Below the pieces are notes generated by a model that was not told the origin of the DNA, did not search any database, and worked only from the letters and a program-made list of their open reading frames with translations. Below, piece after piece: positions 14,279 to 22,300 of a stretch of 22,365 nucleotides of DNA. The stretch lies in the IMG/VR virus record IMGVR_UViG_3300025264_000128, positions 1 through 22,365 of that record, one strand, 5' to 3'. Every line of letters starts with the position of its first letter. The first letter of the stretch is position 1. A program made the translations under genes and the position numbers. This stretch comes from a virus.

Positions 14279-14809
14279 GTGGCGAAAAGAAAAAAGTTGA
14301 GCAAAATGCAACGTCTTTTTATAGAGATGTATGTGTATCAGGATCTGAAACAATCCGAATGTGCGTTGCGTGCGGGATACAGGCATCCGGAGGTGATGGC
14401 TTCAAGGATGCTGAATCATGAAAGGTACAGGCATGTGCAAGAACGTATCCAGGAGTTGCAATATATGCAGAGGCAGAAATACGAGATCACGTTTGAAAAG
14501 GTTGCTGAAGATTTGAAGAAGATCCGGGATGCGGCGCTCGAGGAAGGATCATTCGGGGCGGCAGTAACCGCAGAGTTGGGACGGGCTAAACTGGCAGGCC
14601 TGATGGTGGACAGGAAAGAGGTTAAGTTCGGGAAGATAGATCAGATGGATCGCCAGGAAGTCGAGGCGAGATTGCGGAACCTGATGGAACAGCACAAACT
14701 GGCGCCGATGGTGAAAGACGTTACTCCGGAAGATGTTGCTTCGGAAGATGTTTATTCGGAAGAAGCGGCGATCGAGGATGAGATGGTTGACGAGGAGGAT
14801 GAGGGTTGA
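14279..14809 (+). CDS. terS: Terminase small subunit
   Basis: The 176-residue protein starts with GTG 14279, with AGGAG six bases upstream. Residues 6-60 (LSKMQRLFIEMYV, CALRAGYRHPEVMASRML) match the helix-turn-helix N-terminus of Terminase_2-type small subunits, which bind the packaging site. A helical middle follows with AVTAELGRAKLAGLMVDRKEVKFGKIDQM, the usual oligomerisation region. The C-terminus is very acidic and contains a 5-residue repeat (PEDVA, SEDVY, SEEAA; 15-bp DNA repeat at 14726-14770). Oddly, no terminase large subunit follows; minus-strand genes begin 14 bases later. terL may lie with the late block outside the window. Confidence 0.82.
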   Translation: MAKRKKLSKMQRLFIEMYVYQDLKQSECALRAGYRHPEVMASRMLNHERYRHVQERIQELQYMQRQKYEITFEKVAEDLKKIRDAALEEGSFGAAVTAELGRAKLAGLMVDRKEVKFGKIDQMDRQEVEARLRNLMEQHKLAPMVKDVTPEDVASEDVYSEEAAIEDEMVDEEDEG

Positions 14810-17223: not shown

Positions 17224-17701
17224 CTGTTATCCACTCCCCGATGTTGTTGGACGTGCCAACAAACTCTTTTCTTTTATCAAATTCTTTTTTGTCAATTTCT
17301 TCTAAAGTGCAACAGATAATTCTGTTATCACTCCAAATATCCCCATTTGACTCGTAGGCTTCAAACCAGTTGTGGAGAGCAACCTTGTCCCCGTCCGTTT
17401 CGGTGTTTAATTTATAAGACGAATAGCCAAGGTAACTTTCATCGTACTCATGTTCTCCGTCCCGTATTTCGTCATAAACCATGTAGTAATACATCACTTC
17501 TTTTGCATCAAGTGTTAATGCTTCTCTATGAACGGTGTCTATCTTTCCAATAATTCCTTTCGCATCAATCATTGATTCATATACACCTGAATATTCATCA
17601 CATATTGCTTTAGCTTTTTCCTCTGCATCTTCTTTAGAGGTAGCTTTTACTTTTACAACAAAGCCTTCCTCATAACAAACACTTACTCTATATGTTTTCA
17701 T
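17216..17701 (-). CDS. Acidic protein with DpnD/PcfM-like N-terminus
   Basis: ATG 17701 (161 residues) is preferred: GGAGAAG lies upstream and the ATG overlaps the preceding stop as TGATG. The first 35 residues (YRVSVCYEEGFVVKVKATSK, then EDAEEKAKAI) have the beta-beta-helix pattern of DpnD/PcfM-like proteins and resemble the genes at 17701-17883 and 18345-18524. The rest is tyrosine- and acid-rich. Function unknown. Confidence 0.68.
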   Translation of the reverse strand: MKTYRVSVCYEEGFVVKVKATSKEDAEEKAKAICDEYSGVYESMIDAKGIIGKIDTVHREALTLDAKEVMYYYMVYDEIRDGEHEYDESYLGYSSYKLNTETDGDKVALHNWFEAYESNGDIWSDNRIICCTLEEIDKKEFDKRKEFVGTSNNIGEWITDE

Positions 17702-17883
17702 CACTTCTTCTCCTCGATATCACTACATTCCCAATCTTTTGAAGCATCATACCCAATAGCCTCTATTAGTACTTCTTTGCCTTTTTCATATGCTTCATCT
17801 TCGTCTTTAGCCTCTACAACATAATCGTATTGCAGAGTATCAAAAGGCATAAAACTAACTGTGTATTCTTTTGGTTTACTCAT
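17701..17883 (-). CDS. Short DpnD/PcfM-like protein
   Basis: The 60-residue product MSKPKEYTVSFMPFDTLQYD continues with YVVEAKDEDEAYEKGKEVL, a beta-beta-helix pattern with an A-x-D-E-x-E-A-like helix start. GGGAGAAAG lies upstream, and TGATG overlaps link it to both neighbours. Role unknown. Confidence 0.65.
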   Translation of the reverse strand: MSKPKEYTVSFMPFDTLQYDYVVEAKDEDEAYEKGKEVLIEAIGYDASKDWECSDIEEKK

Positions 17884-18104
17884 CAGCTTTCTCCCTTCAT
17901 GTGGTTCTTTTGGTATGCTCTTAGCGATTCTATTTTTGCTTCCAGTTGTTCGATGTATATATCCTTTGAGACAATTTCTTTTTGGAGGTGTTCGTTTTCT
18001 TTACGCAGTCCATTTGCCAGGCATTCAAACATCTTGGCCTGTGCGTTTTCTTGAGGGGTGAGTCCCCATGCTTTCTCGGTCGAGTATGTTTCCGGTTTGG
18101 CCAT
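17883..18104 (-). CDS. Small coiled-coil protein
   Basis: The 73-residue protein starts at ATG 18104 with a weak ribosome binding site. Residues 20-68 (LANGLRKENEHLQKEIVSKD then IYIEQLEAKIESLRAY) show clear heptads, so it is probably a dimeric coiled coil. Its stop overlaps the next ATG as TGATG. Unknown function. Confidence 0.68.
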   Translation of the reverse strand: MAKPETYSTEKAWGLTPQENAQAKMFECLANGLRKENEHLQKEIVSKDIYIEQLEAKIESLRAYQKNHMKGES

Positions 18105-18120: not shown

Positions 18121-18348
18121 TTATTCTATTATGCATACTCCGAGTATATATACAAGATATTTCTGACCAGGCCAGGCATTTAATGTGCGGGCGTTGTTGT
18201 GCGGCCAAATGCGTTCTGCATTATGCGTTCTGCGATCTGCGTTCTTTTTATTTTTGCGCACGATTGCACGCAATGAGATCACACCCAGTCCCCAATAGGA
18301 GATGATATGCATAGCAAATCTTGAGAGTAGGGTGTGACCGTTGGTCAT
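18121..18348 (-). CDS. Uncertain frame spanning a heptamer repeat
   Basis: A 75-residue frame from ATG 18348 overlaps the upstream stop as ATGA, as its neighbours do, but it lacks a ribosome binding site. Its middle is encoded by the heptamer repeat (peptide NADRRTHNAE). The ends are hydrophobic. It may be a gene invaded by the repeat or only intergenic sequence. Confidence 0.35.
   Translation of the reverse strand: MTNGHTLLSRFAMHIISYWGLGVISLRAIVRKNKKNADRRTHNAERIWPHNNARTLNAWPGQKYLVYILGVCIIE
18210..18244. repeat. Five tandem heptamers (TGCGTTC/TGCGATC type)
   Basis: Units are TGCGTTC, TGCATTA, TGCGTTC, TGCGATC and TGCGTTC in exact 7-base register. The same words appear at 20312-20339 and 22201-22300. 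The array is not CRISPR-like, as it has no spacers. Confidence 0.9.
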
Positions 18349-18524
18349 TCATCATTGTCTACTGCCTCTGCTTCAACAGTAAATGAATCAATAAGTTTCT
18401 TTTTAACTATATCGTTGTCGTACCAATCTCCTTGATCGACCTTATCCATCGCCTCTTTTTCACTATCCGCATCTACAACCACAGATGTAGCGTAATGCTC
18501 ACTTACTAATACTTCATATTTCAT
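18345..18524 (-). CDS. 59-residue DpnD/PcfM-like protein
   Basis: The frame from ATG 18524 to TGA 18345 encodes MKYEVLVSEHYATSVVVDAD followed by SEKEAMDKVDQGDW and an acidic tail. The N-terminal strands and the A-D-S-E-K-E-A helix start are typical of DpnD/PcfM-like small proteins. The ATG overlaps the upstream gene's stop as ATGA, and GGAGAG lies upstream. Function is not established for this family. Confidence 0.7.
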   Translation of the reverse strand: MKYEVLVSEHYATSVVVDADSEKEAMDKVDQGDWYDNDIVKKKLIDSFTVEAEAVDNDE

Positions 18525-18763
18525 CGTCTTTCTCTCCTCTTTTTAACAGCTTCTCTTTTTGTTCTAAACCAATTTGCGCCATGCGCTGTTACTAAGACGT
18601 AGCCATAATTTCTTGGTTCTCTATCAGGCTTGGTAAATTGATACATAGGCAGAAAAGGAATGGGTTCATAACTCTTTCTAAACTTTTTCCATTCATTGAC
18701 GTGTTTTCTCCATTCTTGGTAGCCTCTTATGTTGTATTCTTCGGAAGTTATAATTTCACTCAT
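18521..18763 (-). CDS. Small basic protein of unknown function
   Basis: The 80-residue protein starts at ATG 18763 with AGGAGGTG upstream. It is rich in aromatic and basic residues (QEWRKHVNEWKKFRKSYEPI) and ends KREAVKKRRERR, which may bind nucleic acid. It overlaps both neighbours. No family recognised. Confidence 0.68.
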   Translation of the reverse strand: MSEIITSEEYNIRGYQEWRKHVNEWKKFRKSYEPIPFLPMYQFTKPDREPRNYGYVLVTAHGANWFRTKREAVKKRRERR

Positions 18764-19085
18764 CAGACACCTCCTCTAAAAAATCTGTGTAATCGATTTG
18801 TCCTTTTTCCCCTGTCCATTTGTTCTCGCAAACAAAATAGGCAAGCCTATTGACTAGGTGATAGCCATTGGAAATTACTGTAGTCCCATCGCACTCCAGT
18901 AGAGTCCATATGTTTTGGTCGTTCTGTTTTTGAGCCATTTGATCCAGAATGAAGTCCAGTTCTTTTCCATAAGTTTCAAAGGAAAAATTAATTCCGTCTA
19001 CTGCGAAATAAGTACCCTCATCCATCCCATTTGGTATGGGCTTGTACTTGTCAAACCATTCATCGCTATTTACTTTTTCAGTCAT
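18756..19085 (-). CDS. Small protein of unknown function
   Basis: The 109-residue product starts at ATG 19085 with GGAGGC upstream. It is acidic overall, with segments EGTYFAVDGINFSFETYGKE and ISNGYHLVNRLAYFVCENKW suggesting a mixed fold. It overlaps the next gene by 8 bases. No motif recognised. Confidence 0.68.
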   Translation of the reverse strand: MTEKVNSDEWFDKYKPIPNGMDEGTYFAVDGINFSFETYGKELDFILDQMAQKQNDQNIWTLLECDGTTVISNGYHLVNRLAYFVCENKWTGEKGQIDYTDFLEEVSDE

Positions 19086-19095
19086 CAGATGCCTC

Positions 19096-19395
19096 CTAAA
19101 TTATCCATTGTTTTTCTTCTATATCTTTCCATCCTGACTGGGTGTATTCTTTCCAAAGTTTTTTGTATTCCTCGTCAAAATCTTCTTCGTCCTGATCAAA
19201 ATCGTAGGGGGTAAAAGACTGTTGTTTAGGATGAATGATTGTGCCGGCGTTCATCCAACCTGAGCATTTGTTGATGCCATAGGCAAATGCCATTGCTTCT
19301 TCCCGTGTTTTAAAACTGTGGGTTTCCGGCACCTGATCGCTCGATTGGGGATTCTCGCCCCATAAAACAGTCACATAAAATTGTTGTTCATTCAT
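19096..19395 (-). CDS. Small acidic protein of unknown function
   Basis: ATG 19395 (99 residues) has AGGAGGT five bases upstream, so the TTG just before it is not needed. It begins MNEQQFYVTVLWGENPQSSD, with THSFKTREEAMAFAYGINK giving a strand-helix pattern common in small phage proteins. The C-terminal part is acidic (DFDQDEEDFDEEYKK). Unknown function. Confidence 0.7.
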   Translation of the reverse strand: MNEQQFYVTVLWGENPQSSDQVPETHSFKTREEAMAFAYGINKCSGWMNAGTIIHPKQQSFTPYDFDQDEEDFDEEYKKLWKEYTQSGWKDIEEKQWII

Positions 19396-19711
19396 CAAAC
19401 ACCTCCTGTCCTTGTTCGTCTAAATGCTTCAAGCAGTCATCTTCTTCATCAAATATATCTACCAAACCTAAAACCTTGTTTGTTTTATATTCAACAACAA
19501 CGCAATGATCGTGAGGTTCTTCCGTTAAAACAATATTGCTAAAATCCCAAACACCATCTGTGTCCGTGCAGTTATAGTCGGGAGAAAAACCCTCGCTTTC
19601 CTCGATAGGTGTACCCTCTTTATTGAAAATAATTACATGGCTTACATTGGGTTTTTTGCCCTCATAGTAAAAACCACCTATGTAGTATTCGTAGTGTTTT
19701 TGTCTACTCAT
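19388..19711 (-). CDS. Small acidic protein of unknown function
   Basis: The 107-residue protein starts at ATG 19711, overlapping the previous stop as TGATG, with GGGAGAG upstream. It starts MSRQKHYEYYIGGFYYEGKK, has an internal beta-rich section (HVIIFNKEGTPIEE), and is acidic at the C-terminus. It overlaps the next gene by 8 bases. No family recognised. Confidence 0.7.
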   Translation of the reverse strand: MSRQKHYEYYIGGFYYEGKKPNVSHVIIFNKEGTPIEESEGFSPDYNCTDTDGVWDFSNIVLTEEPHDHCVVVEYKTNKVLGLVDIFDEEDDCLKHLDEQGQEVFDE

Positions 19712-19926
19712 CAGACTCTCTCCCCTTTATCAATGGTTCGAGACTGATTGTGCGTGATACCAGTCTCAATAAATAGCCACCTCACTCTTTCGAGCCACAC
19801 ACATAGAAGGCTAAACCATTTGCTCATAAAATTGGTTAGGGTTATAGCGTAAATTTTTTCCCTAATTAATATCGCTCTATCTCTAAGAGATACGCATAGC
19901 ACGATAAACCAATTTTGTTTGTTCAT
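19711..19926 (-). CDS. Small hydrophobic/basic protein with an internal duplication
   Basis: The 71-residue frame from ATG 19926 overlaps its neighbours as ATGA and TGATG. Two segments are alike: NWFIVLCVSLRDRAILI (about 5-21) and KWFSLLCVWLERVRWLFI (about 36-53). The pattern WF-x2-LCV-x-L-x2-R in both suggests a tandem duplication. Each copy could be an amphipathic, membrane-contacting helix. Composition differs from the acidic neighbours, so the call is moderate. Confidence 0.5.
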   Translation of the reverse strand: MNKQNWFIVLCVSLRDRAILIREKIYAITLTNFMSKWFSLLCVWLERVRWLFIETGITHNQSRTIDKGERV

Positions 19927-20117
19927 AGTTCTTCCTTGTATTTACTACCATCTTCGTTACATTCTTCTCCGTCTTCGTTTTCAAAAAATGCGTGTTCCCA
20001 ATCTAATTCTTCCTTACTACCGTCTCCGTAAGTTACCCAAATTGATGCTATTTCTTCATCTTTTGGAACAACAATTTCATCAACATAAAGTCTTTCGTAT
20101 ATTTTTGGTTTACTCAT
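19923..20117 (-). CDS. Small very acidic protein
   Basis: The 64-residue product starts MSKPKIYERLYVDEIVVPKD and ends in a glutamate/aspartate-rich tail (FFENEDGEECNEDGSKYKEE). High acidity could mimic DNA, as some phage inhibitors do, but that is speculation. It overlaps both neighbours by 4 bases. Confidence 0.66.
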   Translation of the reverse strand: MSKPKIYERLYVDEIVVPKDEEIASIWVTYGDGSKEELDWEHAFFENEDGEECNEDGSKYKEEL

Positions 20118-20422
20118 AGTTGTTCCTTTTTAATTTCAATAATGGTGAATTCAAAATCATGTTTGGTGCTTGCTTCTGCGATCTTTTTAAAATCTGTGTC
20201 GCTGTTTATCTTAACGTATTGTGGTGCTGTGTCCTCTCCTCCAACGTAGCATTTTGCGAGCGTTTGGGTGTCGTCATTGGCAACACTCATCAACGCTTTA
20301 AAAAGAATATTTGCGGTCTGCGTTCTGCGATCTGCTGACCGGATATTTCCACTCGGAACAAAGCCGAATGATTTAACTTTCTTGAAGCTGTCGGTGAATG
20401 TTTTTAAGTTTGAATCTCTCAT
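20114..20422 (-). CDS. Small protein carrying an in-frame heptamer repeat
   Basis: ATG 20422 (102 residues) starts four bases after the upstream stop and lacks a clear ribosome binding site, so reinitiation is likely. Residues about 28-37 (SADRRTQTAN) are encoded by heptamers at 20312-20339 without breaking the frame. The flanks (TDSFKKVKSFGFVPSG and ILFKALMSVANDDTQTLAK) look like ordinary protein. Function unknown. Confidence 0.66.
   Translation of the reverse strand: MRDSNLKTFTDSFKKVKSFGFVPSGNIRSADRRTQTANILFKALMSVANDDTQTLAKCYVGGEDTAPQYVKINSDTDFKKIAEASTKHDFEFTIIEIKKEQL
20312..20339. repeat. Heptamer repeats inside a coding region
   Basis: TGCGGTC, TGCGTTC, TGCGATC and TGCTGAC follow each other in 7-base steps. 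The middle two match exactly the words at 18224-18237. Confidence 0.85.
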
Positions 20423-20426
20423 GGTA

Positions 20427-21065
20427 TTAGTGGAGAGGGAAGCCCACAATATTGAGCCGGTTCCGGACTTGGCATAACTGGCAATTTTTACAGGTTATTT
20501 TATCGTTGTAAGTGGCGGGGCATATGTTGATCAAGTTTCCCGCCGGCGTGGTGATTGTATGGTTGTAGTTCTCGGTACTGGGCAATATAACGACAACTGG
20601 GGCAATTTCTAGGGCTAACAGTCTATCGGCTTCCTCTATTGAATCAGCCGATAAGTTGACGGTGAACCCGTTGTCATTGGCGTATTTAATCTTCTTATAG
20701 TTGCCCGTGTTGTTGTGTTTATGGGTGTAGGTATACCCGCGCTTGCCTCTATTGGCATCAACTAGTTTTTTTAACTTGTTGAAGTTTATAGTCTCGCCGG
20801 TGCCGGCTAAATCACCGGCTTGATTATGTCGCCAGAATGTTTCCGGCTTTAATGCACTAACACGGGCTAAGAAATCACCGTAGTTGTTGCCCCTTGTTTT
20901 GTTGGTTACATGTTGCCAATGGTGACTAATAAAATAGCCACTAATGGCATAACATGATCCATCATTTAAGGGGCAACTGGGGGGGCAACTGGCGCGTTCG
21001 GTTGTGCTGACTGGTATTAATCCCAGTTTTTTATTGCCACTCTTAAGATTAAAATGAGTATGCAT
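20427..21065 (-). CDS. Conserved cysteine-rich protein (resembles DUF7227-type family)
   Basis: The 212-residue protein has IPVSTTERASCPPSCPLNDG then SCY (C27, C31, C38), WRHNQAGDLAGTG (about 79-91), GYTYTHKHN, FTVNLSADSIEEADRLL, PVVVILPS, and a C-terminal CPATYNDKITCKNCQLC cluster. I recall this order in a conserved phage and bacterial family named DUF7227; the number is from memory. Repeated strand-helix units suggest a barrel-like alpha/beta fold, and the two cysteine clusters suggest metal or iron-sulfur binding. C-x3-C-x6-C is not the canonical radical SAM motif. The start at 21065 overlaps the upstream TAA as TAATG. Function unknown. Confidence 0.78.
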   Translation of the reverse strand: MHTHFNLKSGNKKLGLIPVSTTERASCPPSCPLNDGSCYAISGYFISHHWQHVTNKTRGNNYGDFLARVSALKPETFWRHNQAGDLAGTGETINFNKLKKLVDANRGKRGYTYTHKHNNTGNYKKIKYANDNGFTVNLSADSIEEADRLLALEIAPVVVILPSTENYNHTITTPAGNLINICPATYNDKITCKNCQLCQVRNRLNIVGFPLH

Positions 21066-21493
21066 TATTTGATATGGATTATTTCTAAATGATTGTCTAG
21101 CCAGTCTTCGCTGTAGCCCCGATTTATTGCCTCTCTTTTGAGCTCTTTGGCTAGTGTGTTTGGAAGTCTTGCGAGTGTAACCGGCTTGGGATTAATACGG
21201 TTTAATTTTCTAATGAATGACCGCTCCCCATCATCATGGTCAGTCCATACAACCTCTATACCCTGATTTCTAGCAGTTGTAACAAATAATTCAGCATGAC
21301 AATCACCCTCAAGATAGTAAGTTGGCGGGGTGCTATTATCTACATAAGAATAATGACTGAATTGGTTTAATAAAACATTAACTCTTTTCATTTGTGCAGT
21401 TGATACTTTTAGCCATTGATGCCCCCCGTCATAATGAAATACAGTATTCATAACTTCGTATGTAATGGGGCGGTTTTGTTTTTGAATGTTCAT
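21065..21493 (-). CDS. Protein of unknown function upstream of the cysteine-rich gene
   Basis: The 142-residue product starts at ATG 21493, overlapping the previous gene as ATGA. It includes HYDGGHQWLKVSTAQMKRV near 20-38, an alpha/beta centre (ELFVTTARNQGIEVVWTDHD) and a helical C-terminus with ELKREAINRGYSEDWL. No family was recognised. Tight coupling suggests it works with the cysteine-rich protein. Confidence 0.7.
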   Translation of the reverse strand: MNIQKQNRPITYEVMNTVFHYDGGHQWLKVSTAQMKRVNVLLNQFSHYSYVDNSTPPTYYLEGDCHAELFVTTARNQGIEVVWTDHDDGERSFIRKLNRINPKPVTLARLPNTLAKELKREAINRGYSEDWLDNHLEIIHIK

Positions 21494-21702
21494 AATATTG
21501 GCGTTTCATCTACATAGATAATCACGTCATCAAGTGTTAAACCGTGTACTTTTGCGAGTCCTCTTTTGACTGCTATCAATTCCGGCGTTGTGGGGCATGG
21601 TATGTTGCCCAGTTTATAAACTTTGCATACATGCCCCCAAGGTACCATTATTGGTTCTTTATCCTTATAGTTTGAAATTTGAATGGCGTATGAATAAAAC
21701 AT
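21490..21702 (-). CDS. Small protein of unknown function
   Basis: The 70-residue product from ATG 21702 begins MFYSYAIQISNYKDKEPIMV and ends with GLTLDDVIIYVDETPIL. The leader is AAGGGGGCTTAATTATG, almost the same as that of the next gene upstream, with a G-run acting as ribosome binding site. Unknown role. Confidence 0.68.
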   Translation of the reverse strand: MFYSYAIQISNYKDKEPIMVPWGHVCKVYKLGNIPCPTTPELIAVKRGLAKVHGLTLDDVIIYVDETPIL

Positions 21703-21714
21703 AATTAAGCCCCC

Positions 21715-21903
21715 TTACATTGCTGGACGACCATAAGTAATCGTTCCATCATAATTTGTGTATTCAGTTGTTTCTCGGCGTTTAATAATCCAGTCTTTTT
21801 TTTCTTCTTCTGTGAACCAAGGACAACTGCCAAAGAAGGAAACAGTCTTTTTGGTTTTTGTGTTGTAGTAATATGGAACAATTACAGTTTTTGTTTTACT
21901 CAT
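21715..21903 (-). CDS. First gene of the long minus operon, unknown function
   Basis: The 62-residue product MSKTKTVIVPYYYNTKTKKT and following contains CPWFTEEEKKDWIIKRRETT and is basic. The start ATG 21903 follows GGGGGTTTAATT, a G-run ribosome binding site. A candidate promoter lies about 40 bases upstream. Confidence 0.68.
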   Translation of the reverse strand: MSKTKTVIVPYYYNTKTKKTVSFFGSCPWFTEEEKKDWIIKRRETTEYTNYDGTITYGRPAM

Positions 21904-21941
21904 AATTAAACCCCCGTTTTAAAATAGTTTTTCATAGATAC

Positions 21942-21970
21942 ATTATCTCAAAGTGTAGACTCTATGTATA
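21942..21970 (-). promoter_or_regulatory. Candidate promoter of the small-gene operon
   Basis: On the minus strand TATACA (21965-21970), a 17-bp spacer and GATAAT (21942-21947) with the extended TGA just before it. The start site would be near 21935, leaving a short leader to ATG 21903. The -35 matches only four of six. Confidence 0.45.
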
Positions 21971-22200
21971 CAACTATATGCATTAAACGGGCAATTAATT
22001 TGATTAACGGCGGTTAATAAAAAACTTATGTAAAGGCTAGTTTTTTGGAAATAATGACCGCCCGCCCCCCGTCCGGATAAACTTTCGTTGTAGTTTTGGG
22101 CGGGCATCGGGGCATCGAGGGGCGTGGAGTGGGGCGCCCCGCCCCCCTACTCCGCCGGTGCCGGCTCGGATGCTCGAATTGCTACAATGCCCGTAGTTTC
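21971..22200. other. Non-coding stretch with hairpins and a GC-rich block
   Basis: No convincing gene. It holds ATTAAC-GGCG-GTTAAT (22003-22018), AAAAAACT/AGTTTTTT (22019-22026 and 22039-22046), two tandem GGGCATCG (22102-22117) and a GC-rich stem at 22121-22156 with palindrome GGGGCGCCCC (22131-22140). The block differs sharply in base content from the AT-rich flanks. Confidence 0.6.
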
Positions 22201-22300
22201 TGCGATCTATGCCCGCATAATATAAAATGCTTCTGCGATCTACTCCGCATAATATTATTTTGCGTTCTATTTGCGTTCTGTTTTGCGTTCTACTGCGATC
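22201..22300. repeat. Phased heptamer repeats TGCGATC and TGCGTTC
   Basis: TGCGATC lies at 22201, 22234 and 22294; TGCGTTC at 22261, 22272 and 22284. The last four are spaced 11, 12 and 10 bases, about one helical turn. The first two sit in a 33-base direct repeat that also includes CCGCATAATAT. A run of A follows. The final 65 bases show no gene. Confidence 0.85.

Follow-up and report, generated by a model that had tools for sequence, protein, structure and literature searches.

The heptamer words TGCGTTC and TGCGATC that recur in the virus contig IMGVR_UViG_3300025264_000128 (IMG/VR; 22,365 bases, analyzed in full and called the window here) are one version of a one-stranded array that is common to a large group of marine phages, where it stands around small genes. 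With moderate confidence, we regard the arrays of the window and its relatives as operator sites at which a sequence-specific regulator would control a regulon of small genes. Lineages differ in the word, which is CGCAGA in the closest relatives of the window, CGCAG-NN in the phages designated group C and CAAGC-NN in HTVC027P-like pelagiphages, while the locus remains constant: one-stranded direct repeats around a GP88/DUF7227-type gene in a block of small genes.

On the + strand of the window, TGCGWTC occurred 15 times against 2.96 expected, a count reached in 0 of 1000 dinucleotide shuffles; both strands together held 17 copies against 5.8 expected (0 of 100 shuffles reached 17). Neighboring + strand copies within 14 bp of each other formed 7 pairs (0.003 expected; 0 of 1000 dinucleotide shuffles reached 7), and immediate tandem pairs, counted with the middle base left free, numbered 4 (0.001 expected; 0 of 1000 dinucleotide shuffles). 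Thirteen of the 15 + strand copies fell within 18210-22300. The original prediction, made from the letters alone, had described these words in three separate places and allowed for coincidence; the count, run on the window, bears out the recurrence and refutes coincidence. The copies concerned are the following:

18210..18244, + strand: array 1, with TGCGTTC at 18210 and then tandem TGCGTTC/TGCGATC/TGCGTTC at 18224, 18231 and 18238
20177..20183, + strand: isolated extra word, TGCGATC
20312..20332, + strand: array 2, a 7-bp tandem of TGCGGTC (20312), TGCGTTC (20319) and TGCGATC (20326), the first unit being a variant
22201..22300, + strand: array 3, six TGCGWTC words with spacings of 33, 27, 11, 12 and 10 bp

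Only arrays 1 and 2 are genuine tandems of 7 bp; array 3 is a set of dispersed words 10-33 bp apart, so that the earlier description of all three as heptamer arrays holds for the first two; for array 2, the start at 20312 stands, on the variant TGCGGTC, and the end moves from 20339 to 20332. The small leftward genes of the block are encoded on the - strand, where the window word reads GANCGCA and array 1 reads GAACGCAGATCGCAGAACGCA..GAACGCA. Array 1 is intergenic and lies upstream of a leftward gene (17883-18104), and array 2 lies ~100 bp beyond the 3' end of the DUF7227 gene. Array 3 is intergenic as well, with the leftward block on one side and, beyond the window end, a rightward open frame on the other, as seen in contig L004, which matches the window at 100% and extends 897 bases further; no more word copies were found in that extension.

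A 671-aa primase/helicase-like protein retrieved 49 relatives in viral contigs. One relative, G006 (38.8 kb), matches the window at 83% over the primase and has a TerL ~60% identical to those of the Pelagibacter phages HTVC027P and HTVC023P and of DSL-LC04 and 023Pt_psg01; the window therefore belongs to, or borders, the broad HTVC027P/HTVC023P group. Ahead of the DUF7227 gene, both G006 and L448 (DUF7227 92% identical) have a TATAAT promoter with CGCAGA units upstream, ~65-80 bp from the -10 box, and in L448 these units stand behind a terminator, with a strand count of 16:0. The exact TGCGWTC word is not conserved in close relatives, the shared part being a CGCA(G) core. In L021 (54% over the primase), GGCCGCAAGC repeats of a different period flank the GP88-type gene (17242-17859), behind a terminator, and in L084 the word copies are degenerate and dispersed.

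More distant phages carry the same arrangement with other words. A scan of viral contigs for TGCGWTCTGCGWTCTGCG yielded 23 loci, 10 of which encode a terminase small subunit (TerS) ~30% identical to that of the window, their arrays and TerS having the same relative orientation as in the window. These 10 contigs make up group C and carry several CTGCG-NN arrays, all on one strand. All 7 CTGCGNNCTGCG pairs of G001 (51.9 kb) lie on the same strand within 1.8 kb (27.9-29.7 kb); the opposite strand has 0, and a reversed control pattern likewise gave 0. In group C, most arrays come after the end or the terminator of the preceding gene and are followed by a sigma-70 promoter, e.g. TTCGCAGGTCGCAGG-TTGACT-17-GATAAT, and on the gene strand the cassette runs from terminator and GC block through two to four NNCGCAG units to TTGAC-17-GATAAT and the gene. 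In several of these cassette promoters (L067, L072, G001), the -10 box is overlapped by a near-palindrome like TATGGGATNATCCCATA, which may be a second operator. Outside the TerS-sharing group, tandem TGCGTTC units were seen in unrelated contexts (L055, L061, L075, L059).

In HTVC027P (57.6 kb), 16 of the 17 CAAGCNNCAAGC pairs fall within 1.2 kb, those 16 on one strand. The arrays are internal (16.5-17.7 kb of the record) and lie directly upstream of the TTGACA promoters of gp33 and gp34, with others located where a nuclease-like gene has its 3' end and where the block ends. The typical promoter after such arrays is TTGACA-17-TATAAT, with the arrays in register with the -35 box. Scanning viral sequences for CAAGCNNCAAGC followed by TTGAC gave at least 120 stretches, and the 61 with four or more pairs had a strand count of 757:0. 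Their interior units (n = 547, not constrained by the count) have five positions that are 94-98% fixed and two that are random, a clear pattern of five fixed and two free bases in the pelagiphages; the window unit GANCGCA varies at one position. Among gaps of 0-8 between HTVC027P-like repeats, gap 2 stands out, and gap 9 also peaks, as two units would.

Because this first CAAGC set was found partly via TTGAC, the set to trust is one of 80 loci fetched solely by a gp33 relative, 71 of which had enough upstream sequence. Heptads were present ≤250 nt upstream in 65 of these 71 loci, TTGAC also in 63 of the 65, and strand totals were 1100:0. Many contigs are related, and array counts are not independent events. 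In the non-redundant set (37 loci), heptads were found in 32 and TTGAC within 30 nt in 26; 17 of the 26 were in phase with the -35 box modulo 7 (p = 4e-9), and gap 2 repeats occurred in 32 loci compared with 1-5 loci for gaps 0, 1 and 3-8. Across all contigs, 163 distinct heptad promoters precede 28 small-gene families, the largest being GP88 (69) and a 46-aa gp34-like family (29). Two variations were seen in the wider group: in 023Pt_psg01 (L087), at ~11.0-11.5 kb and upstream of a gp33 homologue (69% identical), 4-bp repeats AAGC/GAGC replace the heptads, and in DSL-LC04 (L086:13400-13700) a non-coding stretch upstream of TerL holds loose CCGTG-NN repeats, perhaps another version of the array.

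The heptad promoters of HTVC027P coincide with a published expression class. In RNA sequencing of this phage, which lacks an RNA polymerase of its own, gp33 and gp34 alone formed "extra cluster 2", high 6-9 h after infection, and the authors offer no regulatory reason for the cluster (PMC12753301). These are the two HTVC027P genes with heptad promoters, and the arrays provide a testable reason for their unexplained expression. HTVC023P-type pelagiphages are described as widely distributed and as ranking with the most abundant in nature (PMC9599517); little is known of their gene control. The combination of word, 2-bp spacer, word and TTGAC offers a sequence handle for finding a regulon of small, mostly uncharacterized genes. 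No mention of the arrays was found in the pelagiphage papers searched for repeats and promoters, nor in further searches of the literature.

The setting of the window arrays is defined by the following features:

14279..14809, + strand: TerS, a syntenic marker common to distant array-bearing phages at ~30% identity
17883..18104, - strand: small leftward gene, its 5' intergenic region containing array 1
20427..21065, - strand: DUF7227 gene (Pfam PF23872, E 5.6e-75; phrog_2554)
21942..21970, - strand: promoter-like TATACA-17-GATAAT, its -10 preceded by TG, that would serve the leftward unit with its start at 21903; a consensus match only

The DUF7227 gene is a member of the GP88/DUF7227 group and is related to the GP88-type gene of the other array phages; in those array-bearing lineages that were examined, arrays flank the genes of this group. 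As in the HTVC027P-like cassette, the window arrays lie on the strand of the downstream genes, in one block with this gene. Between array 3 and the leftward promoter, a very GC-rich block with direct repeats occupies 22060-22170, and group C arrays likewise adjoin GC-rich blocks.

We propose that a sequence-specific protein, encoded by phage or host, would bind the short unit cooperatively upstream of the leftward promoters that serve the small genes and would set the timing of the block's transcription by host RNA polymerase, the controlled block comprising the GP88/DUF7227-type gene together with a variable set of small accessory genes. In the pelagiphages and the CGCAG-NN group, the unit is a pentamer with a free 2-bp spacer and the array extends to the -35 box, which would bring the bound protein into contact with sigma region 4 or let it exclude that region, either as a class-II-like activator or as a repressor. 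In the window lineage, the same kind of unit, AGANCGCA, is located further upstream. A role at the DNA level is favored over one in RNA, because the promoter arrays lie upstream of the transcript to be controlled. At the sequence level, the arrays are demonstrably non-random, one-stranded, constrained at five of seven positions, in register with the -35 box and conserved in position; we infer protein binding, the sign of regulation and the same job for the window arrays. The 7-bp unit of pentamer and free spacer, placed in -35 register, fits cooperative binding of a small protein, by analogy with the omega heptads of plasmid pSM19035 (PMC9499535). A broader proposal, which we regard as possible and advance tentatively, is that in a marine phage family including abundant pelagiphages, 5+2 heptad operators phased to the -35 box and with a lineage-specific word drive an exchangeable small-gene regulon, which could be an early or middle anti-defense-like island.

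Several observations weigh against an operator role, some of them in the window itself. The only -10-like hexamer noted for array 1, CATAAT at ~79 bp, is weak and falls under the promoter-scan threshold, while array 3 lies ~230-330 bp upstream of the TATACA-17-GATAAT site, in a region where promoter-like sites were fewer than in shuffles. Neither array thus ends at a -35 box, the nearest -10-like or promoter-like sites being ~79 bp and at least 230 bp away. Array 2 is not at a promoter but inside an open reading frame (ORF) at 20114-20449 (- strand), where it encodes RSADRRTQT. This ORF lacks a clear ribosome site and is perhaps not a gene; a relative that could show whether array 2 had been inserted was sought in viral contigs, and none was found except from the same phage. 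With arrays 1 and 3 this far from promoter-like sites and array 2 within an ORF, the window has a loose promoter link, one that is carried over from the relatives. Among close relatives that share replication genes, stretches of L007, L045 and L014 have weak or no tandem arrays, and group C and HTVC027P also have arrays in the 3' end of a nuclease-like gene, away from promoters. The array counts come partly from related contigs. The 7-bp period is not helical, and contiguous dimers would therefore have to wrap the DNA. Finally, no binder was identified: the ribbon-helix-helix (RHH) family RHH_1 (PF01402) was absent over cut-off from HTVC027P and G001, and its search in 8 phage records gave no match over cut-off and one weak match in psg01. 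G001 encodes a 46-aa protein with a ParD_like match under cut-off.

The GP88-type protein was considered as the DNA binder and rejected, its predicted secondary structure being neither a helix-turn-helix nor an RHH fold. For the gp33 family (L450:2840-3439), the structural model has a predicted local distance difference test score (pLDDT) of 90, and 17 columns are invariant, including six cysteines; the model had no PDB match at E ≤ 0.001, its best matches being weak and TIM-barrel-like, with viperin first at E 0.04. Presence of the gene was also rejected as the sole cause of the arrays. HTVC033P, which has a GP88-type gene and the same listed host as HTVC027P, is free of such arrays over the 5.6 kb surrounding the gene, and four other GP88-type phages lack CAAGC or CGCAG pairs nearby; neither gene nor host alone therefore explains the arrays.

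Other origins of the arrays were weighed against regulation. It is unlikely, though more probable than the explanations that follow, that the repeats mark recombination boundaries, i.e. short homologies at the ends of exchangeable cassettes of gene, terminator, array and promoter, with the promoter link as a by-product. Arrays do occupy nearly every intergenic gap of the variable small-gene block, in which 28 families stand behind one promoter type; the group C cassette has a matching layout, and an annealing protein and an exonuclease are encoded. Recombination through homology, however, does not require a 5+2 pattern in which two positions are random, or a fixed phase relative to the -35 box.

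Ranking below this in probability is the explanation that the arrays are iterons of a replication origin or a pac site, with the replication initiator or TerS as the binding protein. Such sites typically have iterated short words, and the block lies near TerS in every lineage. Yet the arrays are distributed among several promoters as much as 4 kb from one another, no window array adjoins TerS (14279-14809), and group C and HTVC027P differ in word despite common DNA polymerase, helicase and primase-like genes.

Improbable to a further degree is a host origin, in which the operator of a host regulon was copied by the phage and is read by a host protein. The words vary among related phages as if tracking hosts (CAAGC in HTVC027P, which infects Pelagibacter HTCC1062, and CGCAG in its relative G001), the CGCAG of G001 is common to group A phages with unrelated replication genes, and many bacterial genomes, notably those of Pseudomonas and relatives, contain tandem CAAGC-NN arrays (L326-L443). 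Against this stand HTVC033P, array-free in the 5.6 kb around its GP88-type gene, the absence of Pelagibacter among the matches listed in the CAAGC-NN genome scan, and the bacterial arrays themselves, which are followed by TTGAC in 0 of 125 cases. Some of the bacterial arrays adjoin terminators, and they often begin AGC-NN.

The least probable of these explanations is that of neutral minisatellites arising by slippage. Although bacterial genomes hold perfect tandem 7-mers of many kinds, the strand totals and the five constrained and two free positions contradict slippage for the pelagiphage arrays, and array location is fixed across phages with ~30% TerS identity; chance and neutral slippage were rejected in view of the counts, the strand bias and the 5+2 pattern together. 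A mobile repeat, which would have dispersed copies in unrelated places and both orientations, was rejected: the arrays are confined to one block of 1-4 kb and one strand, their word is lineage-specific and their position relative to genes is kept over large phage divergence. Of the options raised by the original prediction, the evidence thus favors the protein-binding array and leaves the mobile repeat unsupported.

Among known repeats, the STRR of cyanobacteria are likewise short tandem heptamers; the phages with this array locus and a known host are not cyanophages (HTVC027P: Pelagibacter). The SRL/SRR of T7-type phages are tandem 7-mers beside the phage terminal repeats, unlike the arrays of HTVC027P, which are internal and upstream of promoters. 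For the proposed operators, a parallel is provided by the RHH protein omega of plasmid pSM19035, whose operators/parS consist of contiguous non-palindromic 7-bp WATCACW repeats with five fixed and two loose bases, overlap the promoter regions of several genes and are bound cooperatively by one dimer per heptad (PMC9499535). Arrays 1 and 2 of the window and those of its relatives are likewise contiguous 7-bp direct repeats (array 3 is not), and arrays abut promoters in pelagiphages and group C. In contrast to omega heptads, the phage units (GANCGCA, CGCAGNN or CAAGCNN) are unrelated to WATCACW and all point one way, phage arrays end at the -35 box, and the phages searched have no RHH_1 gene over cut-off. 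A second parallel comes from archaeal viruses, where a consensus early-gene regulatory sequence was used to find anti-defense genes (PMC11065993). That element has archaeal transcription signals and no heptad arrays, and the anti-defense function is a feature of the archaeal viruses; common to both systems is a conserved upstream element that stands with a promoter before many different small viral genes, which are early genes in the archaeal case.

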